Origin: a virus
Reading direction: 5' to 3' (one strand)
Length of the DNA stretch: 52,725 nt
IMG/VR virus record: IMGVR_UViG_3300028556_000011
Coordinates: 1 to 52,725 of that record
This document shows, piece after piece, positions 3,129 through 43,279 of the stretch. Under the pieces are notes generated by a model, which did no database searches, was not told where the DNA came from, and saw only the letters and a list, made by a program, of their open reading frames with translations. How positions within the stretch are numbered: the first letter of the stretch is position 1; every line of letters starts with the position of its first letter. The position numbers were made by a program, and so were the translations under genes.

Positions 3129-3565
3129 AACTGAACCTCGGCTCCGGCGCGCACCCCCTCGACGGCTTCGTGAATCTCGACGAAGTAATGGGGTGGCGCT
3201 TCGAGCATGGTCTCCAATACGATGACGAGACCGTAGACGCAGTCTCCGTGAGCCATGCGCTCATGTTCGTCGCCGAGAGCCGCCTCCCCGACGTGATCGC
3301 CGACATCTACCGGGTACTCAAGCCGGGCGGGATCCTGCGCGTGACGGAGGACAACACCGAGGATCCCGAGTCGCCCCGGTTCGGCGGCTGGCTCGACGCG
3401 GTCACGCTGACGGGGCCGGAGATGATGCGGGCGCTCTTGAAGGGTGCGGGGTTCCGGGTGCGGAAGCATTCGGCGGAGTCGACGGGATGGGTGGACGGGT
3501 CGTTGTTGCAGGCGTGGCATGGTGGGGAGCCGAAGTGTTTTTGGCTTGAGGGGCGGAAGCCGTGA
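3125..3565 (+). CDS. SAM methyltransferase (type-11-like)
   Basis: A short class I methyltransferase: LNLGSGAHPLDGFVNLD (motif I and the acidic ribose-binding Asp), VSVSHALMFV (motif IV position) and VLKPGGILRVTEDN (post-IV strand). These are the hallmarks of predicted sugar or lipid methyltransferases found next to glycosyltransferases in phage and surface-glycan loci. GTG at 3125 overlaps the upstream TGA; its stop overlaps the mini-ORF at 3562. Confidence 0.8.
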   Translation: MKLNLGSGAHPLDGFVNLDEVMGWRFEHGLQYDDETVDAVSVSHALMFVAESRLPDVIADIYRVLKPGGILRVTEDNTEDPESPRFGGWLDAVTLTGPEMMRALLKGAGFRVRKHSAESTGWVDGSLLQAWHGGEPKCFWLEGRKP

Positions 3566-3606
3566 CTACGGGCCGCGAATCGCTGTTCCCAAGGAGTTAT
3601 CGGTGA
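3562..3606 (+). CDS. 14-aa coupled mini-ORF, cassette left edge
   Basis: GTG at 3562 overlaps the methyltransferase stop, and the mini-ORF's TGA overlaps the next GTG at 3603. It encodes VTTGRESLFPRSYR. The TTxRESL start is shared with genes at 6639, 39125 and 42307, so this is a stand-alone copy of that N-terminal module. AAGGAG at 3591 lies inside it and serves the next gene. It may be a leader peptide or the remnant of a longer gene. Confidence 0.45.
   Translation: MTTGRESLFPRSYR
3574..3585 (+). repeat. Left-edge repeat (RES box), copy 1
   Basis: CGCGAATCGCTG, also at 39137 and 42331 and as the first 10 bases at 6651. Every copy lies within 25-36 bases of a start codon and is read as R-E-S(-L). 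Confidence 0.7.
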
Positions 3607-4007
3607 TCTTCGCTCCAGACCTCGACCTCGCCCGCGAGCAGCACGACGAACTGCGCGAGCGACTCTCTCAGTGGTCACGGCAGGAGGGCTGGGATCGCGC
3701 TCGGTTCCCGTTCGGCGTGTACCGAAACCCGGCTGAGATGAGGGCCGACATCGCGGCTTTGCTTACCCTGGTAGAGACAGCGGAACGAAAGCCGAAGGTG
3801 CGCCGGAATCCGGCCGAACTGGAGAACTGGATCGGGTACGCGCGCAAGGTTGAGGCTGAGCGTGATGCTGCGCTCGCCCGCGTCAAGGAACTAGAGGACG
3901 AGCGGGTCGCGATGATCGGTGCGATCGGTGAGCCTTGCGCGGAGTGCGGGCACATCGATTGGCGCGCTGACCCGAACGAGTACCTGTTCGGCGGGAGAAG
4001 TCGGTGA
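3603..4007 (+). CDS. Coiled-coil protein with C-terminal CxxC (134 aa)
   Basis: GTG at 3603 follows AAGGAG with an 8-base... spacing of 7 and overlaps the mini-ORF stop. Residues 60-110 are a charged coiled coil (repeated Glu/Arg/Leu), and the end carries CAECGHIDW, half of a zinc site. It forms cassette A with the J-domain gene. No family is recognised. Confidence 0.6.
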   Translation: MIFAPDLDLAREQHDELRERLSQWSRQEGWDRARFPFGVYRNPAEMRADIAALLTLVETAERKPKVRRNPAELENWIGYARKVEAERDAALARVKELEDERVAMIGAIGEPCAECGHIDWRADPNEYLFGGRSR

Positions 4008-4573
4008 GGTACGCCGACATCACCTTTCGCCCGATCGAGGCGTGGCCCGGCGAGTTGACGCGGGGCCGTCGCCGCGCGCAGTTCTCGGCGCGGTGGGGCC
4101 AGACGATCCAGTTGCTTGAGAGCGAGTTGACGCACCTGAACGCGCGCCAGGCGGTCTTCCAGGTCACTCTCGAGGAGCGCGACTTCCGCATCGACGGCAC
4201 ACCGCGGGCACGCGCTCAGTCCCATCACCCCGGCGTCATCCTCGCGTTCAACTCGAAGTTCGGTCCGCTCAAATACGCCGTCGACACGTTCGACAACTGG
4301 CAAGACAACGTGCGGGCGATCGCGCTCGCGATGGAGGCGCTCCGCAAGGTCGACCGCTACGGCGTCACGAAGCGGGGAGAGCAGTACACCGGCTGGAAGG
4401 CTCTGCCCGTCTCTACGGACGCCGCTGACGCCGTAGCGACCCGAGAGCAGGCCGAGGCGCTGCTCGCAGGCTACGGCGGTATCACGGCGGCGCTGAAGGC
4501 CACGCATCCCGACCACGGCGGTGACCCCGACGAGTTCCGTCGGGTGATGCGAGCGAAGGCGTTGACGGCGTGA
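4004..4573 (+). CDS. J-domain-containing protein
   Basis: The C-terminal part reads THPDHGGDPDEFRRVMRA: the HPD tripeptide that lets J-domain proteins stimulate Hsp70 ATPase, followed by the acidic/Phe helix IV typical of phage J proteins. The first 140 residues are a separate beta-rich and helical region of unknown function. A role recruiting host DnaK during assembly or replication is plausible but inferred. GTG at 4004 overlaps the upstream stop. Confidence 0.7.
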   Translation: MRYADITFRPIEAWPGELTRGRRRAQFSARWGQTIQLLESELTHLNARQAVFQVTLEERDFRIDGTPRARAQSHHPGVILAFNSKFGPLKYAVDTFDNWQDNVRAIALAMEALRKVDRYGVTKRGEQYTGWKALPVSTDAADAVATREQAEALLAGYGGITAALKATHPDHGGDPDEFRRVMRAKALTA

Positions 4574-4614
4574 ACTTCTCCGACAGAACCACGCTTCGGT
4601 GCCCGAAATGGTGA
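4570..4614 (+). CDS. 14-aa coupled mini-ORF, cassette right edge
   Basis: GTG at 4570 overlaps the J-protein stop, and the TGA at 4612 overlaps the next GTG at 4611. The peptide VNFSDRTTLRCPKW resembles VPDFSRRTTLRGPK at 40023 and the end of the gene at 43070. Conservation at DNA and peptide level at distant loci argues for a real element. Confidence 0.45.
   Translation: MNFSDRTTLRCPKW
4589..4607 (+). repeat. Right-edge repeat (TLRGPK box), copy 1
   Basis: CCACGCTTCGGTGCCCGAA matches the 40045 and 43248 copies at 17 of 19 bases and ends 3 bases before the next gene's GTG. It can fold as TTCG/CGAA. Confidence 0.7.
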
Positions 4615-5327: not shown

Positions 5328-5342
5328 TCCTGGATAGGATGC

Positions 5343-5372: not shown

Positions 5373-5398
5373 TACGCCGACTCGTGGAAGGAGCCAGC

Positions 5399-5893
5399 GT
5401 GAAACGCAAGCCTACCCCCGAAGCTCGTTTCTGGGCGAAGGTCGCCCGCGGAAGCGAAACGGAATGCTGGCCGTGGACGGCCTCGACGGCGGGCGGTGGT
5501 TACGGCCAGTTCGGGTTGCGGGCGGGTTCCTGCGTTCCCGCCCATCGGTTCGCATGGATAGCTACGCACGGGCCGATCCCCGACGGTCTCTGGGTTCTCC
5601 ACCGCTGCGACAACAGGCCATGCTGCAACCCGGCGCATCTCTTCCTCGGCACGCGGCAAGACAACATGGACGATATGGTCGCGAAACGTCGCCATTGGGC
5701 GCATCGCGGATTGCCAGGAAACCTGGGTGAGCAAAACGGGCGCGCGAAACTGACGGCCGAGCAGGTACGCGAGATTCGGAAGCGTCACGCGGACGGCGAG
5801 AGCCAATCCTCAATCGCTCGCGACTACCCGGTGGGACGAATCAAAGTCGGCCAGATCGTCCGTGGAGAATCCTGGAGGCATCTACTCGCATGA
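5399..5893 (+). CDS. HNH homing-type endonuclease
   Basis: A free-standing HNH_3 nuclease of 164 residues. CWPW and GYGQF lead into AHRFAW, then LHRCDNRPCCNPAHLFLGT with the HNH metal-finger residues. The C-terminus (KLTAEQVREIRKRHADG) is a NUMOD-like helix-turn-helix for target recognition. GGAAGGAG precedes GTG 5399. A coupled GTG at 5324 in the same frame is possible but would read through the hairpin. It sits between two glycosyltransferase genes, as a selfish insertion would, and is a paralogue of the leftward gene at 13275-13793. Confidence 0.85.
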   Translation: MKRKPTPEARFWAKVARGSETECWPWTASTAGGGYGQFGLRAGSCVPAHRFAWIATHGPIPDGLWVLHRCDNRPCCNPAHLFLGTRQDNMDDMVAKRRHWAHRGLPGNLGEQNGRAKLTAEQVREIRKRHADGESQSSIARDYPVGRIKVGQIVRGESWRHLLA

Positions 5894-6642
5894 AGATCAC
5901 GGCCGGCTTGATCCTCCGCAACGAACGCTATCGCTACCTCGAATACGCGCTCGCGAACCTGCTCGAGTTCGTCGACGAGATCGCCGTCCTCGACGACGGC
6001 TCCACCGACGGATGGGAAGAACTCATCCCCCGCGGCGCGCCCGTCCGGATTCTCCGGATCGACGACGCCGCCCGCGACGCGCAACCGGCGTTCCACCGCC
6101 ACGCGATCGCCCGGAACCGCCTCCTTCAGCACACCCTCGAAGGTGATCCGGACTGGGTGATCGCCTCCGACGCTGACGAGCTCTTCTCCGACGGGCCCGC
6201 GATCCGACGGCTCGCCGAAACAACCCGGGCGGACGCCCTCTCGGCGGTCATCGCGGAGGTATGGGAGATCTGCGACGAGCGGCTCTGCGTCCGCGAGGAC
6301 GGCGGCTGGCGCTCCCACCCGATCTCGGTCGCGTGGCGCACCGCCCCGCTCCGGCGCTCCTCCCTGTCGCTGGCGGATAAGCAGACGGCGACCGGCCGGG
6401 TGCCGGACGCGGTTCACCGTGTCGCGGCGGAGTTCACGTACGAGGCGCTGTTTCATTTCGGTTGGGCTGACCCGGCGGAGCGGGCGGAGCGGTTCCGGCG
6501 GTACCCGCCCGGGTCGGGTCATGCGAACAGCCATGTGGCGTCGATCATGTGGCCTCCGTCGCGGGTGAATCTCGAGGGGTGGGCGTGGCCGGACGGGCTG
6601 GAGCGGTGGCGCGGCGAGCTGCTCGGTAAGGTGGCGACGTGA
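5890..6642 (+). CDS. Glycosyltransferase family 2
   Basis: A 250-residue GT2 enzyme. LDDGSTDGWEE supplies the nucleotide-binding region and VIASDADELF the DXD metal site; RNRLLQ between them is typical. A His and Trp rich C-terminal region (FHFGWADPAERAERF) resembles acceptor-binding parts of phage glycosyltransferases. ATG overlaps the HNH stop (ATGA). Acceptor unknown; the virion itself is a candidate. Confidence 0.85.
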   Translation: MKITAGLILRNERYRYLEYALANLLEFVDEIAVLDDGSTDGWEELIPRGAPVRILRIDDAARDAQPAFHRHAIARNRLLQHTLEGDPDWVIASDADELFSDGPAIRRLAETTRADALSAVIAEVWEICDERLCVREDGGWRSHPISVAWRTAPLRRSSLSLADKQTATGRVPDAVHRVAAEFTYEALFHFGWADPAERAERFRRYPPGSGHANSHVASIMWPPSRVNLEGWAWPDGLERWRGELLGKVAT

Positions 6643-6860
6643 CTACGACCCGCGAATCGCCTCCCGCTGCATTGAATATGGAGCGCCACGACGACCCGAA
6701 CGAGCCTGCGGACTGCGTTGGTCAGTGGTGTTGCGGCTGCGCGGAGCATCCATCCGGGAAGCCGTGGGGCTGGAACTGGGCCGCGTGGGAGCGCCACTAC
6801 CTCGCCGATCATCCCTACCGTGCGATCCCTGGCCGCCATGAGCGCGGAGTGAGCGCGTGA
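6639..6860 (+). CDS. Cys-rich small protein starting with the RES module (73 aa)
   Basis: GTG at 6639 overlaps the upstream stop. It starts MTTTRESPPAAL, the same left-edge module as at 3562, 39125 and 42307. The rest is unrelated: DCVGQWCCGCAEHP gives a Cys cluster that could bind zinc, followed by Trp-rich sequence. Unlike the other RES copies no TLRGPK edge is found about 1 kb downstream. Confidence 0.6.
   Translation: MTTTRESPPAALNMERHDDPNEPADCVGQWCCGCAEHPSGKPWGWNWAAWERHYLADHPYRAIPGRHERGVSA
6651..6660 (+). repeat. Left-edge repeat (RES box), copy 2
   Basis: CGCGAATCGC, 12 bases after the GTG at 6639; GTGACTACG before it also matches copy 1. Confidence 0.6.
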
Positions 6861-7156: not shown

Positions 7157-7163
7157 CGAAAAC

Positions 7164-7361: not shown

Positions 7362-7367
7362 CGCGCG

Positions 7368-10374: not shown

Positions 10375-13278
10375 GTGACCGTCACCGCCCTCAACAAAGT
10401 CGACGCGCAAGCCGCCGCCGACCGCCACGAGCAGCAGCTCGCCGACGCCTACCAACAGGTACTCGCCGCCGCCGGCCGCACCGCCGCCCACCGCTTCCGC
10501 CAAACCGCACCCATCACCGCAGCCGCGACGCCGAAAGACCCGAAGCAGCCGAACTGGACGCCACCGAACATCGACGAGCTCGTCAACCTCGAACAGATCG
10601 CCGCCCAAACCGCGAAGAAGACCGCGCCGATCCACCGGAAAGCGCTCGGCAGCGTCGGCGACGCCTACGCGGCCGCCGGGATCAGCTTCGACGTCACGAA
10701 CCCGCTCGCGCTCACGCTGCTCGGCCAGATCGGCGGACGCTCCGGCGATGTCGCCAAATCGGTGCGCGACGACCTCGCGAAAATCATCGGCGACGCCTAC
10801 ACGCAGGGGCTCTCCGTGAACAAGACCGCCGAGCAGATCGTCACGCTCTCCGACCAGTTCTCCCAGGCGCAAAGCAAGATGCTGGCGCGCACCGACCTGA
10901 ACGGGATCGCGAACGGCGGCTCCCACCTCGCCGCGAAGGAAGTCTTCGGTGACGGGGGCGGCTACAAGACGTGGCTGACCGCTGCCGACGACCTCGTACG
11001 GCCCACCCATGCGGACGCGGACGGGCAGACGGTGCCGATCGACGAGCAGTTCGACGTCGGCGGCGAGAGCGCCGACTACCCCGGCGACCCGCAGCTATCC
11101 GACGCCGAGGCTTGCAACTGCCGCTGCACGCTGACGTACTCGGAGACGGTCGGTGACGGCTCGAGCGCCGCCGACATTTCGGCCGCAGGTGGGCCGGACG
11201 TGAGTAACCTCGCGATGGTCGCCGTCTATCCCCATCCGAGCGAAGCCGAAGCTATCGCGCTGCCGGACGGGCATCCGCCCGAGAAGATGCACGTAACGCT
11301 CGTTTTTCTCGGTGCCGCCGATACCTTCAATCACGACGATGTACGCGCCGCGCTCGCCCAGGTAGCCAATGCGAGCGAGCCGCTCTCTGGCTCCGTCGGC
11401 GGTGTCGGACGATTCGCTACCGGACCAGATGGGGCGCCGCTCATTGCGCTCCCGTACGTGAAGGGACTCAGCGCGCTTAGGGAATCGGTCGCCTCAGCGC
11501 TCTCCGACCGGGGCATCGAATCTCCGAGTGAGCACGGATGGACGCCACATTTGACACTCGACTACACGCAGGACGACGCGATGCCGCCCACGGACTGTCT
11601 CGGAGCGCCTCTTTCGTTCTCAACGCTTTCCCTCGCGATCGCCGACCAACGACAGGACTTCCCGCTCGCTGCCACGTCCGTTTCGGCCGCAGGTGGTATA
11701 AGCATCACTAGCGAAGGAGGAGATATGGGCGAAGCGCAGATCACGATCCCGCTCACGCTCAGCGTGGGCTCCGCCACTACGAACCAGACCGGGAACCGGA
11801 GCAGCGGAGGGATCGTTCTCGCTCCGAGCATCGAGCCGAGCGTCGATCCTTTCGCGGCCCCTCCTCCCGACGACGACGCGGACGACATCGCGGTCGCGAC
11901 CTCGCACGCCTACCTCGACGACGGCAACGGCTCCTGCATGGAATGCGGCATGGGCCCGGACGCGCAGATCCACGACACGCTCGTAGCCGCCGGGGAAGTA
12001 CCCACCTTCGAGCAGTACGGATCCGCCATGAAGGCGCAGGGATACACGCCCTGGCAGACGACGCTCTGCGTCGAAGGCGTCCCGACCGTCGACAACGGTA
12101 CGAAGCGGATGCTCGCGCTCGGCGGCGGCACCTGGAAGAACCCGCCGATCCCGATCGGGATCATCTACGACTCTCCGCACGCGAGACTGGTATCGGAAGC
12201 CCCGATCTGCGCCCGCGCCGACTACGTCTGGCGCGACGGAAATGAGATCAAAGGGATGGGCGTCTTCACGCTCGACGATGTAGGACAGAAGGCCGCAACG
12301 TACGTCGGCGGTGACTTCATCACGGGTATGAGCATCGACCCGGTCGACGTGGAGTTCGAGCCGATGATGTACGCGAACGGAGCTGCCGTGTCCCTTCCCG
12401 ATGCTGTGGATCTTCCGTCTCCGACAGATCCGCTCGAGGACTACGACGTCATCAACGTCTTCAAGACGTACACGATCGCCGGCGCGACGATCTGCCCGGT
12501 CCAGGCGCTGACAGACGCGACGATCTCGCTGCTCGCTGGCGGCGACGGTCGACTCTCGAACGAGACGCGCTGGGATCTCGGCGACGCGCTCACCGCGAGC
12601 GCCGTCGAGGCGGAGCCGCCGCTGTGCCCGCCCGCCGCCTGGTTCGACGACCCGCAGCTCGACCGGCCCACCCTCGTCACCGTCACCGACGACGGCCGCG
12701 TGTTCGGCCATGTCGCGCCGTGGCGCGGCTGCCACACCGGCTACGCGGGACGCTGCGTCCCGCCGCCCCGCTCCCGCACCGGCTACGCCCACTTCCACGT
12801 CGGCCGCGTCGAAACCGCCGAAGGGGCGCTGCTCCCGATCGGGAAGCTCACCCTGGCGAGCGGCCATGCTTCGATCAACGACACGTCGGCGGCCGCACGG
12901 CGCCATTACGACAACTCGGCGGCGGTCGCCGCGTTCGTCCGCGCAGGCGAGGACGCCCACGGCATCTGGATCGCCGGCGCGCTCCGGCCCGGCGTTTCGC
13001 CGTCGGAGATCCAGGATCTGCTCGCGAACCCGCTCTCGGGCGACTGGCGTAACGGTGAGATGGTCGCCGCGCATGCGGTGCCGGTGCCGGGGTTCCCGAT
13101 CTTGCAGGCGTCGGCGATCGGGGAGGACGGCGGCGAGGAGACGGCGTTGATCCTGACATCGACGATCGGGCTGCTCGACGACGATCCCGGGCCGGTCGAT
13201 TTCGCGGTGCGGTCGCGGGTACTCGCGGCCCGGGCGCGCGGCGGCGTCGCGGCTCTGGCGGAGCTCGCCCGCTCCTAA
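10375..13278 (+). CDS. MuF head-morphogenesis / 2H phosphoesterase / capsid protease fusion
   Basis: A 967-residue three-part protein. Residues about 100-260 are a MuF (SPP1 gp7-like) domain ending in TWLTAADDLVRPTHADADGQ and CNCRCTLTY. Residues about 275-440 carry HVT (306-308) and HLT (392-394), the paired H-x-T motifs of 2H phosphoesterases (LigT-like). Residues about 451-967 resemble actinophage capsid maturation proteases: VFGHVAPW, HYDNSAAVAAF, GIWIAGALRPG and SGDWR are recognisable. The 2H segment is bounded by 16-bp direct repeats and is exactly in frame. MuF and protease act in capsid assembly; the 2H part could cleave cyclic or 2'-5' nucleotides. GTG at 10375. Confidence 0.82.
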   Translation: MTVTALNKVDAQAAADRHEQQLADAYQQVLAAAGRTAAHRFRQTAPITAAATPKDPKQPNWTPPNIDELVNLEQIAAQTAKKTAPIHRKALGSVGDAYAAAGISFDVTNPLALTLLGQIGGRSGDVAKSVRDDLAKIIGDAYTQGLSVNKTAEQIVTLSDQFSQAQSKMLARTDLNGIANGGSHLAAKEVFGDGGGYKTWLTAADDLVRPTHADADGQTVPIDEQFDVGGESADYPGDPQLSDAEACNCRCTLTYSETVGDGSSAADISAAGGPDVSNLAMVAVYPHPSEAEAIALPDGHPPEKMHVTLVFLGAADTFNHDDVRAALAQVANASEPLSGSVGGVGRFATGPDGAPLIALPYVKGLSALRESVASALSDRGIESPSEHGWTPHLTLDYTQDDAMPPTDCLGAPLSFSTLSLAIADQRQDFPLAATSVSAAGGISITSEGGDMGEAQITIPLTLSVGSATTNQTGNRSSGGIVLAPSIEPSVDPFAAPPPDDDADDIAVATSHAYLDDGNGSCMECGMGPDAQIHDTLVAAGEVPTFEQYGSAMKAQGYTPWQTTLCVEGVPTVDNGTKRMLALGGGTWKNPPIPIGIIYDSPHARLVSEAPICARADYVWRDGNEIKGMGVFTLDDVGQKAATYVGGDFITGMSIDPVDVEFEPMMYANGAAVSLPDAVDLPSPTDPLEDYDVINVFKTYTIAGATICPVQALTDATISLLAGGDGRLSNETRWDLGDALTASAVEAEPPLCPPAAWFDDPQLDRPTLVTVTDDGRVFGHVAPWRGCHTGYAGRCVPPPRSRTGYAHFHVGRVETAEGALLPIGKLTLASGHASINDTSAAARRHYDNSAAVAAFVRAGEDAHGIWIAGALRPGVSPSEIQDLLANPLSGDWRNGEMVAAHAVPVPGFPILQASAIGEDGGEETALILTSTIGLLDDDPGPVDFAVRSRVLAARARGGVAALAELARS
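11177..11696 (+). repeat. Direct repeats flanking the 2H domain
   Basis: TTTCGGCCGCAGGTGG occurs at 11177-11192 and again at 11681-11696. The offset is 504 bp (168 codons), so removing one repeat plus the 2H segment leaves the frame intact and joins MuF directly to the protease leader. Confidence 0.9.
11725..13278 (+). CDS. Capsid protease from internal start (nested)
   Basis: GAAGGAGGAGAT stands immediately before an in-frame ATG at 11725 (codon 451 of the fusion), one of the strongest ribosome sites in the window. It would release a 517-residue protein holding the CMEC-GMGPD motif, the protease-like region and the C-terminal domain, without MuF or 2H. In-frame nested head genes are known from lambda C/Nu3. 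Whether both forms are made is not shown by sequence. Confidence 0.6.
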   Translation: MGEAQITIPLTLSVGSATTNQTGNRSSGGIVLAPSIEPSVDPFAAPPPDDDADDIAVATSHAYLDDGNGSCMECGMGPDAQIHDTLVAAGEVPTFEQYGSAMKAQGYTPWQTTLCVEGVPTVDNGTKRMLALGGGTWKNPPIPIGIIYDSPHARLVSEAPICARADYVWRDGNEIKGMGVFTLDDVGQKAATYVGGDFITGMSIDPVDVEFEPMMYANGAAVSLPDAVDLPSPTDPLEDYDVINVFKTYTIAGATICPVQALTDATISLLAGGDGRLSNETRWDLGDALTASAVEAEPPLCPPAAWFDDPQLDRPTLVTVTDDGRVFGHVAPWRGCHTGYAGRCVPPPRSRTGYAHFHVGRVETAEGALLPIGKLTLASGHASINDTSAAARRHYDNSAAVAAFVRAGEDAHGIWIAGALRPGVSPSEIQDLLANPLSGDWRNGEMVAAHAVPVPGFPILQASAIGEDGGEETALILTSTIGLLDDDPGPVDFAVRSRVLAARARGGVAALAELARS

Positions 13279-13793
13279 AGGTGCTGCCAGCGGCGACGCA
13301 AGATGTCGAAGACCGCGCTCCGTTTTAGCCCCATTGCCTCGGCGATTTCAAACTGGCGCTCGCCGTCGGCGAACCTTCGCCTGACTTCCGCGACGATGGA
13401 GGCGGTGTACTTGGCATGAGGATTTCGTTCTCCGACGAGCAGACCAGCCGGAACGCCTCCTCTCGCGCGGCCTTTCCGTTTCATATCGCCGCCGTTATCG
13501 GCATGAGTGCCAATGAAGAGATGCGTGGGGCGAACGCAGATCCGATTGTCGCAATGGTGGCAGACAAGCAGGCCAGCGGGGATTTCTCCTCGCTCGAGTC
13601 TCCAAACGACACGATGAGCAAGCGCCGCTCGGTCATCTTCACCGCTCCAGATTACGCCGTAGCCAGCGCGTCCGACGGCGCCGCTCCACAGCCAGCAGTT
13701 GCCGATTGCGGAATCGGATCCAGGGATGGGCCCATTCATGTTCACCTTCTCCCAGAAGCGCTCAGAAAGAGGTCGTTTAGCCACCACCGCCAT
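13275..13793 (-). CDS. HNH homing-type endonuclease (leftward)
   Basis: A 172-residue HNH protein in reverse orientation inside the head operon. RFWEKV, CWLWSG and GYGVIW lead to CHHCDNRICVRPTHLFIGT with the HNH residues, then a C-terminal helix-turn-helix (VRRRFADGERQFEIAEAMG). It shares architecture with the gene at 5399 (RFWxKV, CDNR, GERN/GEQN, and final W-x-HL). Its stop overlaps the capsid protease stop by 4 bases. Orientation against the operon and lack of a clear ribosome site fit a mobile selfish gene. Confidence 0.85.
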   Translation of the reverse strand: MAVVAKRPLSERFWEKVNMNGPIPGSDSAIGNCWLWSGAVGRAGYGVIWSGEDDRAALAHRVVWRLERGEIPAGLLVCHHCDNRICVRPTHLFIGTHADNGGDMKRKGRARGGVPAGLLVGERNPHAKYTASIVAEVRRRFADGERQFEIAEAMGLKRSAVFDILRRRWQHL

Positions 13794-30357: not shown

Positions 30358-30897
30358 ATGACCGACAAGCAGCTGCTCCCGCTCCTGAAAGCCCAAGGCT
30401 TCCAGTTCCCCGCCCAGATCCTCAAGGCGCGCACCGCCGCGAAACTCGGACTGCCGCTCGCCTGCGCCATGCTCGAGCTCGAAACCGGCGGCGGCTACAA
30501 CGAATGGGGCCACGACCCGACGAACTTCATCGGCGGCTTCGACAGGTTCACCGGCATCCATTGGGGCGAGACGGTCACCGAGGGTGCCTACAAGGCGTAC
30601 GCGGCGCAGCGGGACGCCCACGGGCTGCAGGGTGTCGGCCCGGCCCAACTGACGTCGGAAGGGCTGCAGAAGCAGACGGACGCCGCCGGCGGCTGCTGGG
30701 TGCCCGTCCATAACATGGCCGTGGGATTCCATTTTCTTCACGATCTGATCCTTACCCACGGCAGCGTTCTTGCTGGCTGCATTGCCTATAACGGGAGAGG
30801 TCCCGCGGCAGACGCCTATGGAGCCCATCTGGTGGCTCTAGCCGAGCACTACAAGAGCATCGGATTGGGATCTGTAGTAGGGATCCTCAAGGCATGA
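30358..30897 (+). CDS. Endolysin: lysozyme-like transglycosylase
   Basis: A 179-residue lysozyme-fold protein. AMLELETGG (Glu40/Glu42, catalytic Glu) and HDPTNFIGG are at the start of the fold; VGPAQLTSEGLQ and LAGCIAYNGRG are the usual later motifs of SLT/G-type lysozymes. It cleaves peptidoglycan at lysis. Following membrane proteins supply holin candidates. GTG 30352 is an alternative start two codons up. The last 49 bases overlap a reverse homing endonuclease gene, so the natural C-terminus may be altered. Confidence 0.78.
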   Translation: MTDKQLLPLLKAQGFQFPAQILKARTAAKLGLPLACAMLELETGGGYNEWGHDPTNFIGGFDRFTGIHWGETVTEGAYKAYAAQRDAHGLQGVGPAQLTSEGLQKQTDAAGGCWVPVHNMAVGFHFLHDLILTHGSVLAGCIAYNGRGPAADAYGAHLVALAEHYKSIGLGSVVGILKA

Positions 30898-31226
30898 GGC
30901 ATGTAGCCATCCTCGGCGGCGTTCATAAGGGCTTCATCCCACTGCGCTCTCTTGATGGTGCTGAGCCACGGATAGATTGCCTCCATCGCCACAATGGCCG
31001 CCACGCCATACGCCCTCCAGCACCACTGGTGACGTCGGTTGCCAATCTTGATGATAGGGCCATAGATTTTCCCTACCTCCAGAATGCTTGCCAAGCGTTC
31101 AAGTGGCTGGGTGTCGCATTGGTTGGCTTGAGTGCGCAGACACCGCCCTTGCCAGGCGCAGTGACCTTCGCCGTCGAAGAACCCTGCCGCCCAAGCAAGT
31201 TCCGTGTTCCGCGTATGCTCTGGCAC
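30849..31226 (-). CDS. LAGLIDADG-type homing endonuclease (leftward)
   Basis: A 125-residue protein with LAWAAGFFDGEGHC (residues 10-23), the LAGLIDADG helix with its catalytic acidic residue, then a beta/alpha body (LASILEVGKIYGP, GVAAIVAMEAIYPWL). A single motif means it would work as a dimer. It runs against the operon and overlaps the 3' end of the endolysin gene, as expected of a free-standing mobile gene. Confidence 0.75.
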   Translation of the reverse strand: MPEHTRNTELAWAAGFFDGEGHCAWQGRCLRTQANQCDTQPLERLASILEVGKIYGPIIKIGNRRHQWCWRAYGVAAIVAMEAIYPWLSTIKRAQWDEALMNAAEDGYMPHALRIPTTDPNPMLL

Positions 31227-34804: not shown

Positions 34805-34996
34805 ATGAGTAACGACATGGAGACGGTCAGCATCAAGTTCCCCGCAGAGATGCGCGACCGGCTCAAGACACTCGCCCGCTCGAACGAGCGGACGTTCGCG
34901 GCCGAAGTTCGCGTCGCGTGCAGTCACCACCTGGAAAGCAACGGCTCGGGCGCCACCTCGCCAGAAGCGAACGCCCGAGCCGCAACGAAGCCATGA
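34805..34996 (+). CDS. Ribbon-helix-helix transcription regulator
   Basis: A 63-residue Arc/CopG-like protein: an N-terminal strand (VSIKFP), AEMRDRLKTLARSNERTFAAEVRVA for the two helices, then a short disordered tail. It binds DNA as a dimer; the tandem TACGTA sites just upstream are probable targets, giving control of both divergent operons and of itself. It is the only clear transcription regulator I see. Confidence 0.8.
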   Translation: MSNDMETVSIKFPAEMRDRLKTLARSNERTFAAEVRVACSHHLESNGSGATSPEANARAATKP

Positions 34997-35529
34997 TACG
35001 TATCCCGCTCAGACGAGTCGACGGAACGATCCGCGCATACGCGCTCATCGACGACGTAGACGCGGAGCAGGCCGACTTCCGTTGGCACCTCACCACCGGC
35101 GGCTACGTCCGCCGCCGCATACGCATTGACGGCAAGGCGGTTCTCCTCGGCCTCCATCGCGCCATCCTCGATCTGCCGCTTAGCGATCCGCGTATGCCAG
35201 ACCACATCAACGGCGACCCGCTCGACAACCGCCGAGCAAACCTTCGCGTCGCAACGAGAGCCGAAAACCAACAGAATCGGGTTGTCCATAAGACGAGCGG
35301 TAATGGGTACCGCGGCGTTCACTACCACAAGTTCTCTGGACTCTGGCAAGCGCGCGTCAAGGTGAACCGCCAATGGCACTATGCCGGCTACCACAAGACC
35401 GCCGAACTGGCGGCGGAGGCTGCGGCTGATCTCCGTCTGCGCCTTATGCCTTTTACTAATGAAGAGCGCACGCCCACCGACCACGTAGCGAACGAGACGG
35501 TGGGCGTGCTCTACGAGAAGGGAGCCTAG
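34993..35529 (+). CDS. HNH endonuclease with AP2 domain
   Basis: A 178-residue protein. DHINGDPLDNRRANLRVATRAEN is split here as DHINGDPLDNRR and NLRVATRAEN, the HNH core; GYRGVHYHKFSGLWQARV plus a helix (KTAELAAEAAADL) is the AP2-type DNA-binding domain. This is the standard mobile HNH-AP2 architecture. ATG 34993 overlaps the regulator's stop, and a TACGTAT lies in its first codons, so it may be co-regulated. Confidence 0.85.
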   Translation: MIRIPLRRVDGTIRAYALIDDVDAEQADFRWHLTTGGYVRRRIRIDGKAVLLGLHRAILDLPLSDPRMPDHINGDPLDNRRANLRVATRAENQQNRVVHKTSGNGYRGVHYHKFSGLWQARVKVNRQWHYAGYHKTAELAAEAAADLRLRLMPFTNEERTPTDHVANETVGVLYEKGA

Positions 35530-35917: not shown

Positions 35918-36123
35918 ACTCCGTCCGTAAGCGCTTCACGTTCAGCGACGAAGGCCGCAAGTTGGCCCGTAGGCTTTGGCACGGGAACCTGAACGACATT
36001 CCCGTGGGCCTCGCCTACGACTTCGAGTTGCGCTACATCATCGAGAACAACCGCGCCGATGGTTTCCGTGGATCGAGTGCGCGCGTCGCCGCTGCCAAGG
36101 CCGAGTTGGCGGTCCGGGCATGA
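35914..36123 (+). CDS. Hypothetical protein (69 aa)
   Basis: ATG overlaps the previous stop. Basic start (VRKRFTFSDEGRKLARRLWHG) then helical. Directly before RecT and coupled to it. No family recognised. Confidence 0.55.
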   Translation: MNSVRKRFTFSDEGRKLARRLWHGNLNDIPVGLAYDFELRYIIENNRADGFRGSSARVAAAKAELAVRA

Positions 36124-37241
36124 GCGAGATCGCAACCCAGCCACCCGCCGTCCTCACCGAGATCCGCGGCGACGCCTTCAAGGCTCAGCTCGCCGCCGCG
36201 CTCCCCGAAGGAATCACCGCCGAAAGGTTCGCCCGGATCACCGTCACCGCACTCATGGAAGACGCCGCGAAGCAGCGCGACCCGAGCAAGCAGCTGATCG
36301 CGTGCGACCGCGCGAGCCTCTACCAGGCGATCATCAAGTGCGCACAGGACGGACTCAATCCGGACGGCCGCGAAGCCGCTTTGGTCAAGCGCGGCCAGAT
36401 CGTCGTCTACCAGCCGATGATCGGCGGGCTCCGGAAGATCGCCGCCCGCTACGGCTGGACGATCCGCTCCGCCGCCGTCCGCGAACGCGACGAGTTCGAC
36501 TTCACCGACGAGCCGCCGTCCCTCTACCACAAGGTTCACACCGGCCCGGAGCCGCGCGGCGAGCTCGTCTACGCCTACGCCGTCGCCCGCCACCGCGACG
36601 GCCGCCGCGAGCAGCGCGTCATGACCCGCGACGAGGTGCTCAAGCGGGCGAAGAGCGCGACGACCGCACAGGTATGGGACGCCTGGCCCGACGAGATGTG
36701 GTCGAAGACCCCGGCGCGCGACCTCTTCCAGGAGCTGCCGCTCGACCTCGAAGTCTCCGAGCGGCTTCGCGAGGCGCTCGCGGACGTCACCCCGGCCGAG
36801 GCGCTCTACGGCCCGCAGGATCATCCCGAGCTCTCGGCGACCCCCCCGGACGTCGAGACAGGCGCGGGCGAGGCATCCCCCGGAACCTCAGCCTCGCCCG
36901 CGCCGGCTCCCCTCGACGACGAGCCCGAACCGTCGCCCGAGCCGGTACAGGAGACCATCGAGGCGCCGACCGTGACCGGCGACGAAGCCGACGTCGCGGC
37001 GCTCGCCACCCAGGCCGCTAACTACGTCCCGCCGAACGGGAAATACGGGCCCGACGGGCAGCACGGCCCGAAGACGCTCGCGGGGATCCTCGCCCTCGGC
37101 GACGACGGCGAACGCTGGATCAAATGGGCGCTCTCGAAGATCAGCGAGCCGCCCGAGTATGCCGCCGCGGTGTGGTCGTTCGCGCGTGTTCATGCGGTCG
37201 CCGCCTACCAGGAAGCCGCCGCGAGAAAGGAACTGGCATGA
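36120..37241 (+). CDS. recT: RecT-family single-strand annealing protein
   Basis: A 373-residue protein. The RecT core (about 1-235) shows LYQAIIKCAQDGLNPDG, KRGQIVVYQPMIGGLRKIA, RELVYAYAVAR-like ELVYAYAVARHRDG and WPDEMWSKTPARDLF. It anneals complementary strands during recombination or replication. Residues about 240-310 are an acidic Pro/Glu linker, and the last 60 form an extra helical domain not present in minimal RecT. Partners nearby are SbcD/SbcC-like proteins rather than a RecE or YqaJ nuclease. Confidence 0.85.
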   Translation: MSEIATQPPAVLTEIRGDAFKAQLAAALPEGITAERFARITVTALMEDAAKQRDPSKQLIACDRASLYQAIIKCAQDGLNPDGREAALVKRGQIVVYQPMIGGLRKIAARYGWTIRSAAVRERDEFDFTDEPPSLYHKVHTGPEPRGELVYAYAVARHRDGRREQRVMTRDEVLKRAKSATTAQVWDAWPDEMWSKTPARDLFQELPLDLEVSERLREALADVTPAEALYGPQDHPELSATPPDVETGAGEASPGTSASPAPAPLDDEPEPSPEPVQETIEAPTVTGDEADVAALATQAANYVPPNGKYGPDGQHGPKTLAGILALGDDGERWIKWALSKISEPPEYAAAVWSFARVHAVAAYQEAAARKELA

Positions 37242-37456: not shown

Positions 37457-37605
37457 TGCTCGGCGAGCCGTGGTTCTACTGGGCGATCTTCGCCGTCGCG
37501 ATCCTCCTCTGGGTCGCGGTACCGATCGTCGACCGCTGGGAACGGCGGCAAGACCGCCGCGACCAGGAGACGTGGGAGCGGATCCGCTCCGGGTTGCGGC
37601 CATGA
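37456..37605 (+). CDS. Small membrane-anchored protein (49 aa)
   Basis: ATG 37456 shares a base with the upstream stop. One hydrophobic helix (FYWAIFAVAILLWVAVPIV), then a highly charged tail (WERRQDRRDQETWERIR). Role unknown. Confidence 0.5.
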   Translation: MLGEPWFYWAIFAVAILLWVAVPIVDRWERRQDRRDQETWERIRSGLRP

Positions 37606-39128
37606 AGATCCTCGCGTTCAGCGACCTGCATCTGGGCGCCGGCCAGGATCACCGAGCCGACGCGCTCGCCGACCAGTCCCGCGTCCTCGAGCAGATCGCT
37701 GCGCTCGCCTACGAGCGGAACGTCGACTTGATCCTGAACGCCGGCGACACGTTCCACCGTGCGAAGCCCGCCCCGGCGGAGCTCCATGTCTTCAAGCGGT
37801 TCTGCGTGGCGCTCGCGGCGCTCGGGATCCCGATGGTGGCGATCGGCGGGAACGGGATGCATGACGCGGCTCCGGGGCAGAAGAGCGCGCTCGAGCTGTT
37901 CGAGTCGCCGCTGGTGCGCGTCAGCCGCACGCCCGAGATGATCGCTTTCCCTAGCGGAGGACCTAACCAGCTGGGCGTGGCGGTCTGCACGCTCCCGGCA
38001 GCCGCGCTCGGCCATCTCGCCGCAGCCGGGAACGGCGTGCCACGGGCCGATCTGGCGGAGCGGGCGGTCGATCTGCTGCTCGGCTGCGCCCGGCAGCTGT
38101 ACGCAGACGCGCCCGACGACCAGCCACGCATCCTCTTGGCCCATCAGATGGTCAGCGGTGCGTCGCTGCCGACTGGTTTGCCGGTGGAGCAGGTCGGCTC
38201 GGTGGTGCTGCCGCTGTGGGCGCTCGAGGAGCAAGGCTGGGACGCGATCGTGCTCGGCGATATCCACAAGGCGCAGGCGCTCGCCGAGAGTGAGGACGAC
38301 TACCATGCGCCGATCTTCTATTGCGGCTCACCGATGACGCACGACTTCGGTGAAGCCGACGTTCCGCACGGATGCTGGCTGCTCGAAACGTCCTACGACC
38401 GGGATGAGCAGCTATCCATCCGGTCGAGTTTTCAGGTGCTCTCCGGTCGCCGCTTCGTCACAGTCGACGTCGACCTCACGCAATATTCGTCGGTCAAAGG
38501 TGCTGCAAGCCATACCCAGGAAGAGGGGCCTCGCTCGCCTACGCCTGGGGAGGTACGGCCGACGCTAGAGGCTCCGGGCATGAGGGCACCTAACCCGGAG
38601 TCCAACCGCGAGCGTAGCGGGGAGGGAGCGGAACACGGCCGCGCGGCCTTCGGGAACCAGCATCCCGACTTCCTCCTCGCTCGCGGCCTCGAGGAGTACC
38701 CACCGGAATCTGAACTCCGCGCAGCGAGTACGAAACGCCTCTTCGAGCCACTTCAAGACAAGCTCGATGAGTTGAAAGAACGGATCCTTTCCGGCATCGA
38801 CGAAACTGACCTGATCGCCGCTGCCATCGCGGCAAAGTTTCCGCTCACCGACGCCGTCGTCCGCGTTCGCTACCGCGCGACCGAGGAGCAGCACCGCCGC
38901 GTCGACCACGCCGCTTTGCAACGCCTCGTCATGGACGCCGGCGCGCACCGCCTCTACGGAGGCGTATCGTGGGAGCCGGTGCGGGAGACGCGGACGCGGG
39001 CCGCCGGGCTCGACGAGAGCCTGCCGCCGCTCGCCGCGGTCGATCTGTGGCTGGCCGCGAACACGGTGGATGACGGGCAGGCGGCGGCTTTGCGGGCGCT
39101 GCTCGGCGGATGGCTGGAGACGGTATGA
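37602..39128 (+). CDS. sbcD: SbcD/Mre11-like nuclease subunit
   Basis: A 508-residue metallophosphoesterase. Motifs: SDLHLG (7-12), GDTFH (48-52), GGNGMHD (82-88), LLAHQMVSGA and LGDIHKAQ. It pairs with the SbcC-like gene downstream to process DNA ends. Two motifs differ from the usual forms: GNHD is GN-GM-HD (two extra residues) and GHIH is GDIH. Around residues 300-370 is a polar, low-complexity insert (Pro/Glu/Arg/Ser) before the capping domain. ATG overlaps the upstream stop. Confidence 0.8.
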   Translation: MKILAFSDLHLGAGQDHRADALADQSRVLEQIAALAYERNVDLILNAGDTFHRAKPAPAELHVFKRFCVALAALGIPMVAIGGNGMHDAAPGQKSALELFESPLVRVSRTPEMIAFPSGGPNQLGVAVCTLPAAALGHLAAAGNGVPRADLAERAVDLLLGCARQLYADAPDDQPRILLAHQMVSGASLPTGLPVEQVGSVVLPLWALEEQGWDAIVLGDIHKAQALAESEDDYHAPIFYCGSPMTHDFGEADVPHGCWLLETSYDRDEQLSIRSSFQVLSGRRFVTVDVDLTQYSSVKGAASHTQEEGPRSPTPGEVRPTLEAPGMRAPNPESNRERSGEGAEHGRAAFGNQHPDFLLARGLEEYPPESELRAASTKRLFEPLQDKLDELKERILSGIDETDLIAAAIAAKFPLTDAVVRVRYRATEEQHRRVDHAALQRLVMDAGAHRLYGGVSWEPVRETRTRAAGLDESLPPLAAVDLWLAANTVDDGQAAALRALLGGWLETV

Positions 39129-40030
39129 CTTCCCCTCGCGAATCGCTGCCCGCAGCCCTGTACGGGCGCGACGCGCTCGGCGTTGAAGTGCCCGAGTGGC
39201 TGCCGGTGAGCGTGTCTGACTGGCGGCTCCGACGGCTCCGCGACGATCACTACTCGGGTGGGGTTGGCGGCAAGACCGCCGGTCGCCCAGGGCGCAGGAT
39301 CGCGTTCGTGACGTTCGAGGGCACCGCTGGATGGATCAGCGGTCACCAGGGCGTCGTGGATCACGACTTCGGCGACGCCTTCGAATGCACGCTGTTCCGC
39401 AAGGAGTGTGCAGGGCTGTCCTCCCCGATGATCGAGGACGCGATCTGGCGAACCGAAGCGCGGTGGGGAGCTCCGCCGCCGGGTGGCTGGCTCACATTCA
39501 TCGATGCCGACAAGGTCAAGTCGCCAAACCCGGGCTACTCGTTCAAATGCGCTGGATTCGTCTACGTCGGTAAGAGCAAAGATCGCGGCTTGACGGTACT
39601 TCGGCGTGGCGGCTCAGCAACGATCAGGCTGGCCGACCGCCTCCGTCTCGAAGAGCAGCGACTCTCCGGGCGTGGTTGGCAGCCGCGAGTCAGCCACGGT
39701 CTACCGCTCTTCGGTGACCGCCAAGCAAAGGTCGTTCACCACGAGGGATGGGCTGAGATTGTCCCACCGCATGAAGCCGGGTGGCTCGACCCGCCGATGC
39801 AGGAATGGCTCGCGCTTCCGGTTGGTGACGCCTGTCCGGCCTGCGGCTCGACTCATTGGGGAACGCTCAACGCTCGCGGCTACTTCTGCGTTCGGCAGTG
39901 CCACGACGAACATGCCACTGGCTGCCGTTCCACGTTCCGGGGCGAGGTAACCCCTCACACGATCGAGAGCGTTGTATCTGCGCTAGTCGGTACTCCGAGA
40001 AGGTTCGCTACGGGTGCGCCCCGTGCCTGA
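39125..40030 (+). CDS. Mom-like DNA-modification acyltransferase with zinc finger
   Basis: A 306-residue protein. After the RES module (MTSPRESLPAAL), residues 40-170 resemble Mom/GNAT-like phage proteins: RRLRDDHYSGG, RIAFVTFEG, FECTLFRKECAGLSSPMI, WGAPPPGGWLTFIDADKV and FKCAGFVYVGKSK. Mom of phage Mu adds a carbamoylmethyl group to adenine and blocks restriction. A C-terminal zinc-finger-like part (CPACGSTHWGTL, CVRQCHDEHATGC) could contact DNA. The call rests on motif similarity only. It is the body of cassette B. Confidence 0.55.
   Translation: MTSPRESLPAALYGRDALGVEVPEWLPVSVSDWRLRRLRDDHYSGGVGGKTAGRPGRRIAFVTFEGTAGWISGHQGVVDHDFGDAFECTLFRKECAGLSSPMIEDAIWRTEARWGAPPPGGWLTFIDADKVKSPNPGYSFKCAGFVYVGKSKDRGLTVLRRGGSATIRLADRLRLEEQRLSGRGWQPRVSHGLPLFGDRQAKVVHHEGWAEIVPPHEAGWLDPPMQEWLALPVGDACPACGSTHWGTLNARGYFCVRQCHDEHATGCRSTFRGEVTPHTIESVVSALVGTPRRFATGAPRA
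39137..39148 (+). repeat. Left-edge repeat (RES box), copy 3
   Basis: CGCGAATCGCTG, 12 bases after the ATG at 39125; identical to copies at 3574 and 42331. Confidence 0.75.
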
Positions 40031-40079
40031 CTTCTCCCGCCGAACCACGCTTCGCGGCCCGAAGAGCGAGAGCGAATGA
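40023..40079 (+). CDS. 18-aa coupled mini-ORF, cassette right edge
   Basis: GTG 40023 lies before the Mom-like stop (40028-40030), and the TGA 40077-40079 overlaps the SbcC ATG at 40076. It encodes VPDFSRRTTLRGPKSESE, close to the 4570 peptide. It may couple translation of SbcC to the cassette, or be the remnant of a former gene. Confidence 0.45.
   Translation: MPDFSRRTTLRGPKSESE
40045..40064 (+). repeat. Right-edge repeat (TLRGPK box), copy 2
   Basis: CCACGCTTCGCGGCCCGAAG; exact 20-base match to 43248-43267. CTTCG and CGAAG can pair. Confidence 0.85.
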
Positions 40080-42310
40080 ACCCGCTCCGCCTCACCGCAA
40101 CGAACCTCCGCACCTTCCCCGCCGTCGACTGGCAGATCCCCGAAGGCATCACCGCCATCATCGGACCTAACGGCGCCGGGAAATCCACGCTACTCGGCGC
40201 GGTCGAGCTCGCCCTGTTCGCGGACGGTGCCCGCGACCTCGCACCGGCGCTCGGCCCGTTCGCCGCGAGCCTCGAGATCACGCTGGAGTTCGAGCACGCC
40301 GGCGAGATGCTGCGTGTAAGGCGCACGTACTCAGGATCTGGGCGCGGGAAGGCAACGCTCGATTTCGAGCAGCGCCATGAGTACCTGCCGAAGCACGAAG
40401 GCGACACGGGATTCTACGATTGGCATCCGCTTACGCGAGAAAGCGCATCGGCAACGCAGACCTTCCTCGAGGACACGCTCGGGCTAAGCCGCCAGACGTT
40501 CGGCGCGAGCGCCTACATTGCGCAGGGCAATTCGGCAGCTTTCTGCGAAGCCGCCCCAGCCGAACGGAAGAGCATCTTGGGCGCGATCCTCGACCCGGCG
40601 CAGATCTGGCCGCGACTCGCTAACAAGGCGCTCGCCGAAAGGAAGATCGCCGAGACGGAACTCCAGGTCGCGCAGACGAAAGCCGCCGACCGCGAACCGA
40701 TCGCCGCCCAGGCCGACGACCTCGACCGCGCCGCCGCGCAGGCGGGCGTCACCGTCGGCGTAGCCGAAGCAGCCCACACGGAAGCCGCGGAGGCGCTCGG
40801 GCACGCGCAGGCGGCGCGGGTAGGTAACGAAGCCGCCGCCGAACGATGGCGATCCGCCGAACAGGCAGAACGGTCGGCGAAGGGAGCGGTAGATGCCGCG
40901 CAGAAACGTCTTGCGGACGCGCAAGCCGACGCTGACCAGCTACCTCATGCGCAGGCGGCGCTCGCCGAGCTCGACCGGCAAGCCGCCGAGATCCCGGCTC
41001 TCCAGCGGAAAGCCGAAGAGGCACGCACGGCGGAACTACGGGCGCAGGCCGCCCGGCAGCAGAAAGCGGATGCGCACGCCGCCGTTGCGCGCCAGGACGC
41101 CCTGGTCGCCGACCTCTCCCGCGAAGCCGCGCTGCTTCGCACACGCGCCGCCGCCGCGCAGGACAAGCTGAACCACCTCGCCGGCGCCGAGGCAGGGGCG
41201 GAGCGCTGCGACCGCTGCGAGCAAATCCTCGGCGCCGAAGCGCTCGCCGCCGCCGAACGGAGCCTCGCCGCGGAGGCGGAGCAACTACGCGGAGAGCGCG
41301 AGGCGAAAGAGGCGTCAGTCGACGAGGCTCAGCGGCTCCGGGCGAAACTCGCCGAAGACGCCGTCGCGATCGAAGTGCCCGTCCTGGCGCCGGACGACTC
41401 GGCGGAGCGCCTCGAACAGGCCCGCCGCGCCGCGCAGGAACGCGCAGGACTCGCCGTCCGCCTCCAAGCCTACGAAGCAGCCGACCAGCAGCTCCCCGCG
41501 CTCTCGCAGGCGCACATCGCCGCCGAGCGCGACCTCCTGACCGCGCACGCCGCCGCGAACCGGTCCCGCGACGCGATGGCCGACCCCGCCGTGCTCGAGC
41601 AGGCCGTCGCAGCCGCCAGCTTCACCGCTTCCAACCGCCGCGTCGACGCCGAAGAAGCCCGCGCCAACCTGATCCGCGCGCAGGAAGCGCTCGCACGGGC
41701 CCGCGACGCCCAAACCGAGCTGAACCAGCTACGGGAACGCGCCGCCGAGCTGAACGCGCTGCTCGCCCTGCTCCGCCTCGCCGAACGCGCCACCGGCCGC
41801 GACGGCATCCCCGCCCTGATCGCCGAGAACACCTGCGGGATCATCGAAGCCGAAGCGAACCGCGTCCTCGAACAGCTCCCGACCGCGAGCGGCACTACGT
41901 TCCGGGTCGAGCTCCGCACGCAGCGCGCCCTCAAGACCGACGCGGCGGCGCTACGGGAGACGCTCGACATCCTCGTCTCGGATCGGCAGACGACGCGGGA
42001 GTTCCTGACGTTCAGCGGCGGCGAACAGTTCCGGGTCTCGTTCGCTCTCCGCTGGGCGCTCGCCCGGCTGCTCGCGGGCCGCCGCGGTGCGGAGTCGCGG
42101 CTGCTGGTCGTCGACGAGCCGGACGGTTTGGACGCGGGCGGGATGGACGGGCTCGCGGCGGTGCTCCGGGAGGGCGCCGTCGGGTTCGACCGGGTGCTGC
42201 TTGTGTCGCATAACCCGCTGCTGGCGTCGGCGTTTCCGCAGGTGGCGGAGGTGGCGTCTGATGGTGAGGCGTCGTGGCTGGTCGGCGATCGGGAAGGGGT
42301 GACGGTATGA
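40076..42310 (+). CDS. sbcC: SbcC/Rad50-like ATPase
   Basis: A 744-residue SMC-type ATPase. Walker A GPNGAGKST (30-38), a long Ala/Glu/Arg coiled coil, a zinc hook CDRC (378-381), a second coiled coil, signature FSGGEQFR (from 646), Walker B LLVVDEP (676-682) and SHN (H-loop). With the SbcD-like protein it would open and trim DNA ends; the coiled coils are short for the family. The upstream mini-ORF overlaps its ATG. Confidence 0.9.
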   Translation: MNPLRLTATNLRTFPAVDWQIPEGITAIIGPNGAGKSTLLGAVELALFADGARDLAPALGPFAASLEITLEFEHAGEMLRVRRTYSGSGRGKATLDFEQRHEYLPKHEGDTGFYDWHPLTRESASATQTFLEDTLGLSRQTFGASAYIAQGNSAAFCEAAPAERKSILGAILDPAQIWPRLANKALAERKIAETELQVAQTKAADREPIAAQADDLDRAAAQAGVTVGVAEAAHTEAAEALGHAQAARVGNEAAAERWRSAEQAERSAKGAVDAAQKRLADAQADADQLPHAQAALAELDRQAAEIPALQRKAEEARTAELRAQAARQQKADAHAAVARQDALVADLSREAALLRTRAAAAQDKLNHLAGAEAGAERCDRCEQILGAEALAAAERSLAAEAEQLRGEREAKEASVDEAQRLRAKLAEDAVAIEVPVLAPDDSAERLEQARRAAQERAGLAVRLQAYEAADQQLPALSQAHIAAERDLLTAHAAANRSRDAMADPAVLEQAVAAASFTASNRRVDAEEARANLIRAQEALARARDAQTELNQLRERAAELNALLALLRLAERATGRDGIPALIAENTCGIIEAEANRVLEQLPTASGTTFRVELRTQRALKTDAAALRETLDILVSDRQTTREFLTFSGGEQFRVSFALRWALARLLAGRRGAESRLLVVDEPDGLDAGGMDGLAAVLREGAVGFDRVLLVSHNPLLASAFPQVAEVASDGEASWLVGDREGVTV

Positions 42311-42690
42311 CGGACGAAACAACTACGGCGCGCGAATCGCTGGTTGCAGCCCGGAAACTGCGCTCGTGCGACCGGGTGATCCTCGACGCGCTCCTGGACG
42401 GCTCGGCCACGGCACGCGAGATTTCGGAGCGCGTCCTGATGCGCTCCAAAGAGGAGTGGGCGGCACGGCACGACTACTTCTTCGAGTGGGACACCGACGA
42501 GGAGCCTCTCGGCGCGGCCCTGCTCGCGCACAGCGAGGCCCGGAAGGCCGGATGGGTGCTGATGACCTGGGAGATCGACGGCCGCCTGCGGGCGCTTAGA
42601 GAAGCGCGGAGCGGTCGAGCGGCTACAGATCGCCGGAACGCGCCCGATGCTCTGGAGCCGTCGTGTCTGAGTCGCTGTTCGGTTCCCTGA
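42307..42690 (+). CDS. Winged-helix-like protein starting with the RES module
   Basis: ATG overlaps the SbcC stop. The start, MTDETTTARESLVAA, carries the RES module; DRVILDALLDGSATAREISERV resembles a winged-helix recognition unit and is followed by a Trp-rich beta part. The last 28 bases overlap the next gene. Left member of cassette C. Confidence 0.55.
   Translation: MTDETTTARESLVAARKLRSCDRVILDALLDGSATAREISERVLMRSKEEWAARHDYFFEWDTDEEPLGAALLAHSEARKAGWVLMTWEIDGRLRALREARSGRAATDRRNAPDALEPSCLSRCSVP
42331..42342 (+). repeat. Left-edge repeat (RES box), copy 4
   Basis: CGCGAATCGCTG, 24 bases after the ATG at 42307. Confidence 0.75.
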
Positions 42691-43073
42691 GAGAGCGCGC
42701 CGTGAAGGAGCCGCTCGGCGTGGACATATCCGACTACTCGGACGAGTACTGCGCGGGCTTCCTCGCCGGTCAGGTGAACGCCCTGGACGAGGCAGATCGC
42801 GTCTACGAGGACGTGCGGATGGAGGCGATTGCGGATGCGGTCATGGCCGCGTTCCCCGACTCCGATCCTGATGGATACGACGCAGCCGACCTGATCAAGC
42901 GGAACGTCGAGCAGGCGTTGGTACTCCGCGAGGCGCTGAGGCGCTGCGAGAACGACTGGACGTTCATCTTCAACCTCGCTCCTGGGCTGCCCGCCGAGAT
43001 CGAGACAGTGCTCCACGTGCTCGCAGAAGTGAACCTCCGCACCGTCCGTGAGGCGCTTGGAGAGCCGACGTGA
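42663..43073 (+). CDS. Hypothetical acidic protein (136 aa)
   Basis: GTG 42663 lies inside the end of the upstream gene. Acidic and helical, with YSDEYCAGFLAGQVNALDEAD and a C-terminal helix. No family recognised; central member of cassette C. Confidence 0.55.
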   Translation: MSESLFGSLRERAVKEPLGVDISDYSDEYCAGFLAGQVNALDEADRVYEDVRMEAIADAVMAAFPDSDPDGYDAADLIKRNVEQALVLREALRRCENDWTFIFNLAPGLPAEIETVLHVLAEVNLRTVREALGEPT

Positions 43074-43279
43074 AGGCAGACGAAGCCGCGCACGCTGATC
43101 CGCAGTTCGCGAAGCTAGGGGATCACGCTGGAGGAAGTGGTCAAGTCGGGCAAGCGACCTCTGCCGACACAACCATCGACGGAACGACCGTCGCCTCTAA
43201 TCCGTCGGACTCCGGCGCTCCTAGCTTCGCCAACAGCGGGCTGCCAGCCACGCTTCGCGGCCCGAAGGCGCCCGCATGA
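43070..43279 (+). CDS. Ser/Gly-rich small protein ending in the TLRGPK module
   Basis: GTG overlaps the upstream stop. The first 50 residues are Ser/Gly/Ala/Thr-rich and probably disordered; the end FANSGLPATLRGPKAPA carries the right-edge module in the same reading frame as the 4570 and 40023 mini-ORFs. Its stop overlaps the next ATG. Confidence 0.5.
   Translation: MKADEAAHADPQFAKLGDHAGGSGQVGQATSADTTIDGTTVASNPSDSGAPSFANSGLPATLRGPKAPA
43248..43267 (+). repeat. Right-edge repeat (TLRGPK box), copy 3
   Basis: CCACGCTTCGCGGCCCGAAG, identical to 40045-40064, ending 8 bases before the ATG at 43276. Confidence 0.85.

Follow-up and report, generated by a model that had tools for sequence, protein, structure and literature searches.

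It has long been asked how a phage adds genes at the borders of existing ones without damaging them, and boundary sequences that recur are a rare find. The DNA analyzed here, a stretch of 52,725 nucleotides forming IMG/VR record IMGVR_UViG_3300028556_000011 (the window), raises this question in a concrete form. That is, does one virus carry three gene cassettes that share their edges and differ in their contents, and if so, how did such units come to their sites?

The portal of the source virus resembles those of Mycobacterium, Gordonia and Microbacterium phages, and this uncultured virus resembles phages of actinobacteria. The two ends of the window (1-148 and 52578-52725) are 97% identical over 148 bp, so that the contig probably represents a circular or circularly permuted molecule. 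The sole close relative found was IMGVR_UViG_3300046663_000177 (G001), of which the amino-acid identity to the window is 69% for the portal, 79% for the terminase and 48% for SbcC. The window encodes a RecT-like single-stranded DNA annealing protein (36120..37241), which is a candidate recombination enzyme; this gene and all inserts, edges, insert genes and sbc genes described below lie on the + strand. Neither a transposase nor an integrase was found among the window proteins scanned, which represent a part of its ORFs, and an Rfam search gave no match. Four endonuclease genes are also present (5399-5893, 13275-13739, 30849-31226 and 34993-35529); the first, second and fourth match Pfam HNH_3, and the third matches a PHROG annotated as HNH endonuclease.

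The left edge is a sequence of about 20-24 nt common to four gene starts, at 3562, 6639, 39125 and 42307. It begins at the start codon with the pattern RTGAC... and reads M-T-x-x-R-E-S-L. Its motif CGCGAATCGCTG occurs exactly at 3574, 39137 and 42331. This 12-mer alone is not significant, as 4 matches with at most one mismatch compare with 1.67 expected, and one of the four lies away from the edges. When the 80 gene starts were compared with each other without bias, all six pairs of left edges fell within the top ten of 3157 pairs, and the four edges formed the top clique. No comparable edge family was found in G001, where the best score was 28 against 41 in the window. In both B and C, the hexamer GACGGT lies just upstream of the left ATGA, and the left border therefore may not sit exactly at RTGA.

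The right edge, of 20-35 nt, is common to three downstream junctions (before 4608, 40076 and 43276). Exact copies of its motif CCACGCTTCGCGGCCCGAAG lie at 40045 and 43248, in agreement with the predicted identity of 20 bases between B and C, and the copy at 4589 has 3 mismatches. None of 100 shuffles reached three matches of this quality, and in the unbiased comparison the right-edge pairs ranked 1, 2 and 6 among all upstream regions. In A, B and C, the stop codon of the right edge overlaps the RTG start of the next gene. The TLRxPK module, which had been described as the end of each cassette, is present in all three, with the correction that it belongs to a short ORF in A (14 codons) and in B (18 codons), whereas in C it closes a weak ORF. 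For three edge sequences, folding was no better than that of shuffles.

Each right edge follows a left edge by 0.9-1.05 kb. For random gene junctions, the probability that right edges fall within 1.1 kb after left edges is 1.6e-4. Inserts A, B and C measure 951-1049 bp and insert 4, at the fourth left edge, 218 bp; RTGA is found at both borders of all four, and the spacing from edge core to RTGA varies from 0 to 12 nt. Since RTGA is the commonest gene junction in the window (32/77), finding it at the borders says little in favor of a target preference or a duplication. Beyond the edges, the bodies of A, B and C share nearly no sequence and are unrelated, so that the original prediction of three cassettes with the same edges and unrelated contents was borne out, and the edge families stand out statistically. 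The clearest exception in the bodies is an exact inverted match of 17 nt between 3986-4002, at the gene junction of A, and 40029-40045, at the inner right edge of B. Six cargo ORFs were scored for codon usage. Three of them, including the B gene, took the 2nd, 4th and 6th lowest places among 65, as foreign genes would be expected to do; the scores of the remaining three were ordinary.

Insert A extends from GTGA 3562 to GTGA 4611 and contains a leader, two genes and a bridge. Its left edge (3562..3585) consists of GTGA and CTACGGGCCGCGAATCGCTG. The original prediction placed a start codon with the RES module at the head of every cassette. This arrangement was confirmed at the protein N-termini of B and C; in A, the RES frame is a leader of 14 codons, MTTGRESLFPRSYR plus stop, which ends at the GTGA of the real first gene at 3603, so that the coiled-coil protein does not begin with it. 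The first gene (3603..4007; 134 aa) weakly matches phrog_3956 and phrog_3507, of unknown function. The second (4004..4573; 189 aa) matches phrog_9210 (1.6e-39) and genes annotated as DnaJ-like chaperonin in Gordonia and Microbacterium phages, which agrees with the J protein expected there. The right edge (4574..4608) is within a mini-ORF of 14 codons, VNFSDRTTLRCPKW plus stop (4570-4614), which bridges from the DnaJ-like stop codon to the next start. At the corresponding site, G001 has about 2 kb of other genes and no edges; a G-rich quasi-repetitive sequence of about 0.8 kb with ggcacggcatgg-like units (L007:6695-7490) also lies at this site of G001.

Insert B extends from ATGA 39125 to ATGA 40076, between homologues of sbcD (37602..39128) and sbcC (40076..42310), and is composed of one gene fused to the left edge and a bridge of 18 codons. 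The left edge (39125..39148) is ATGACTTCCCCTCGCGAATCGCTG, and it encodes the N-terminus MTSPRESLPAAL of a 301-aa protein (39125..40030) with atypical codon usage. This protein was originally called Mom-like, a relationship that sequence searches of Pfam, NCBIfam and PDB did not confirm; its N-terminal part matches only the unannotated phrog_24928, and its C-terminal part has a weak, sub-threshold match to a zinc ribbon. The right edge (40030..40064) lies in the 18-codon mini-ORF VPDFSRRTTLRGPKSESE plus stop, which bridges to the sbcC start. In G001, sbcD meets sbcC directly at ATGA, with neither insert B nor its edges. That is, the edges of B coincide with the limits of the DNA that is extra relative to G001. 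The SbcD homologue of the window (37602-39128) contains an in-frame stretch of about 90 residues without a match in the SbcD of G001.

Insert C, separated from B by the sbcC homologue, extends from ATGA 42307 to ATGA 43276 (42307..43279) and has ORFs of 127, 117 and 69 aa, none with a confident family. The first is fused to the left edge (42307..42342; ATGA, 12 nt and CTACGGCGCGCGAATCGCTG; N-terminus MTDETTTARESLVAA), and the last, with a weak coding signal, ends in the right edge (43233..43267) with the C-terminus ...LPATLRGPKAPA and a TGA that overlaps the next start (ATGA 43276). The genes downstream of sbcC differ between G001 and the window. Insert 4 (6639..6860; GTGA 6639 to GTGA 6857) has the left edge only (GTGACTACGACCCGCGAATCGCC) and an ORF of 73 aa, MTTTRESPPAAL..., as predicted for the fourth RES start, which lacks a right edge. 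It is an insert of 218 bp relative to G001, in which the genes for the glycosyltransferase and the membrane protein adjoin at GTGA with neither insert nor edges between them, and the left edge of insert 4 coincides with the limit of the extra DNA. Thus B and 4 are segments that are present in the window and absent at the same junction of G001, as is characteristic of phage morons, and at A and C G001 offers no uninserted site. The edges appear to have come together with inserts B and 4.

We therefore consider with about even confidence that these units are insertion modules akin to phage morons, which have short, shared, partly coding ends and would be moved by short-homology recombination. 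In its favor are the two edge families and their pairing, the junctions of G001 that lack B and 4, and the unrelated cargo, half of the scored ORFs having codon usage like that of foreign genes. This reading is also favored because the virus encodes RecT and SbcCD, because no transposase or integrase is among the scanned proteins, and because inserts with border repeats and recombination at boundary sequences have published precedents. The shortness (about 20-35 nt) and divergence of the shared edges count against it, as do the variable spacing of their cores from RTGA, the ordinary codon scores of three cargo ORFs, the missing right edge of insert 4, and the fact that a single genome carries the edges and their movement is unseen. 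The modules would enter at tight RTGA overlaps of stop and start, so that neither neighbor loses codons and the two may stay translationally coupled. The left end starts with the start codon of a gene, and the right end (TLRxPK...RTGA) runs in frame to the stop overlapping the next start. During movement, the ends may be the sequences that are recognized or annealed. Most likely, the phage RecT would anneal these short homologies between genomes that both have modules of this type, with SbcCD encoded close by; an unseen recombinase would be the alternative mover. The short coding ends may have been retained for passing ribosomes on to the following gene, and the right-edge mini-ORFs, to judge from their reading frames alone, may bridge translation.

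A bolder form of this reading holds that the ends form a cargo-neutral system, that is, that they serve both as recognition or annealing sequences and as coupling adapters by which arbitrary genes are plugged into operons at RTGA overlaps. We regard it as very doubtful, below all the other readings weighed here.

The units could instead be transposon-like elements that are non-autonomous, with terminal repeats that are inverted but imperfect (core CTWCGGGCCGCGAAKCGYKG), a 4-bp target duplication of RTGA, differing cargo and a transposase supplied in trans by the host or a co-infecting phage. We think this unlikely. When a matrix of the right edges was scanned as its reverse complement, left edge A ranked next after the three sites used for training, out of 105,404 positions; in the register chosen, all four left edges were among the top 80. 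A register-free scan agreed, as left edge A was the best non-self match (19.5 vs 13.3 bits). RTGA at both borders would also suit such elements. However, RTGA on both sides is expected for any insertion that keeps the overlap of stop and start, and the variable spacing from core to RTGA and the lack of a transposase among the proteins tested do not fit. Furthermore, the best inverted pairwise match between a left and a right edge (score 26) was only 4th of 6308 comparable pairs of gene borders, the two ends of insert A match each other poorly when inverted (15), and those of insert B score 13 inverted, below 17 in direct orientation. The inverted matches are also inflated because the edge cores are partly palindromic. 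Taken together, left and right edges may be weak inverted copies of each other, which is suggestive only, with a rough P of 0.01 to 0.001 estimated from the ranks. The original statement that this is not a known transposon or integron holds as far as tested, and this weak relation leaves room for a transposon-like origin. The idea that both ends of an insert pair with each other as RNA or DNA was also dropped, because complementarity within inserts was not better than that between inserts.

The possibility that the edges are regulatory or translation signals, and not the ends of mobile units, seems to us quite improbable. The start-associated sequences of Cluster K mycobacteriophages are 13 bp long, contain a Shine-Dalgarno core and lie upstream of the starts of a subset of genes (PMC3203893). 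Like these, the left edges begin at start codons and the right edges end shortly before them, and the codon changes between edges are few and, by inspection, about half synonymous. On the other hand, the sbcC and membrane-protein genes of G001 have no such edge, the edges pair at the borders of inserts, the right edges lack a Shine-Dalgarno core, and the left edges come after the start codon.

The original prediction proposed a modular exchange site that uses coding edges as homology, in which resident pairs of edges at fixed sites would have their contents swapped by homologous recombination; the modular units, shared edges and differing contents were supported, in part by the uninserted junctions of B and 4 in G001, and the exact 20-mer in right edges B and C, the presence of RecT and a described exchange at boundary sequences in phages (PMC3029335) would suit it, but exchange by edge homology seems quite improbable to us, because the G001 sites, whether uninserted (B and 4) or filled by other genes (A), are without edges and the same edges occur at four unrelated sites, so that the edges appear to travel with the insert and not to be resident homology of a fixed site.

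No other edge-carrying genome was found, and thus a swap of contents between existing edges was never observed, nor a second genome with different bodies between these edges. The search for paired edge motifs in phage and metagenome sequences, with exact and degenerate patterns, gave no convincing case in IMG/VR or GTDB genomes. Matches to the edge cores there were mostly single and were treated as chance, and a weak pair (L118) and self-palindromic overlaps were not convincing as paired edges. The peptide RTTLR(G/C)PK had three matches in IMG/VR, none with left-like edges, which were also taken as chance. In G001, a start resembling RES (L025:4767) was dropped since it lies inside another ORF, and an ancestral mini-gene of about 19 codons (MTTTRESLPATLRGPK...), of which the edges would be the two halves, had no instance in the phage collection or the retrieved loci. 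At the thresholds used, relatives in deposited phages were found only for the DnaJ-like protein of A and the N-terminal part of the B protein, and not for the other cargo proteins tested; the defense-gene library gave no cargo match.

Returning to insertion modules, these inserts hint, in a single genome, that phages may have a means, usable again and again, of adding new genes while the old ones stay unbroken. Three inserts with the same ends would offer defined sequences for testing whether borders are recognized, annealed or selected.

Integron gene cassettes carry different genes between conserved recombination ends, and the present units resemble them in this respect; here, however, there is no integrase among the tested proteins, no edge hairpin beyond that of shuffles, and the sites are dispersed. 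In contrast to transposons and MITEs, the same element was not found at several loci or genomes; A, B and C share only edges, and the loci from the IMG/VR and GTDB pattern scans had no convincing paired edges. The start-associated sequences are likewise short repeats tied to translation starts, but those of Cluster K do not bracket inserts. MPME1/2 are elements of about 440 bp with an ORF of 123 residues, a 6-bp addition at the left end and short terminal repeats (PMC3029335, PMC4351075). They are also small inserts of actinobacteriophages, whereas here the cargo differs each time, with unrelated ORFs in about 0.95-1.05 kb (218 bp in insert 4). Also close are the phage morons and mosaic boundary insertions, such as YungJamal gene 60, Corndog gene 14 and Island3 gene 68. 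These are single genes inserted between others, and their borders show short repeats, inverted or direct, or a shared C-terminal sequence (PMC4351075, PMC3029335). The present inserts are likewise bordered by repeats at gene junctions, and they differ in that the same pair of edges is found around unrelated cargo at three sites of one genome, which is a variant of known phage mosaicism.
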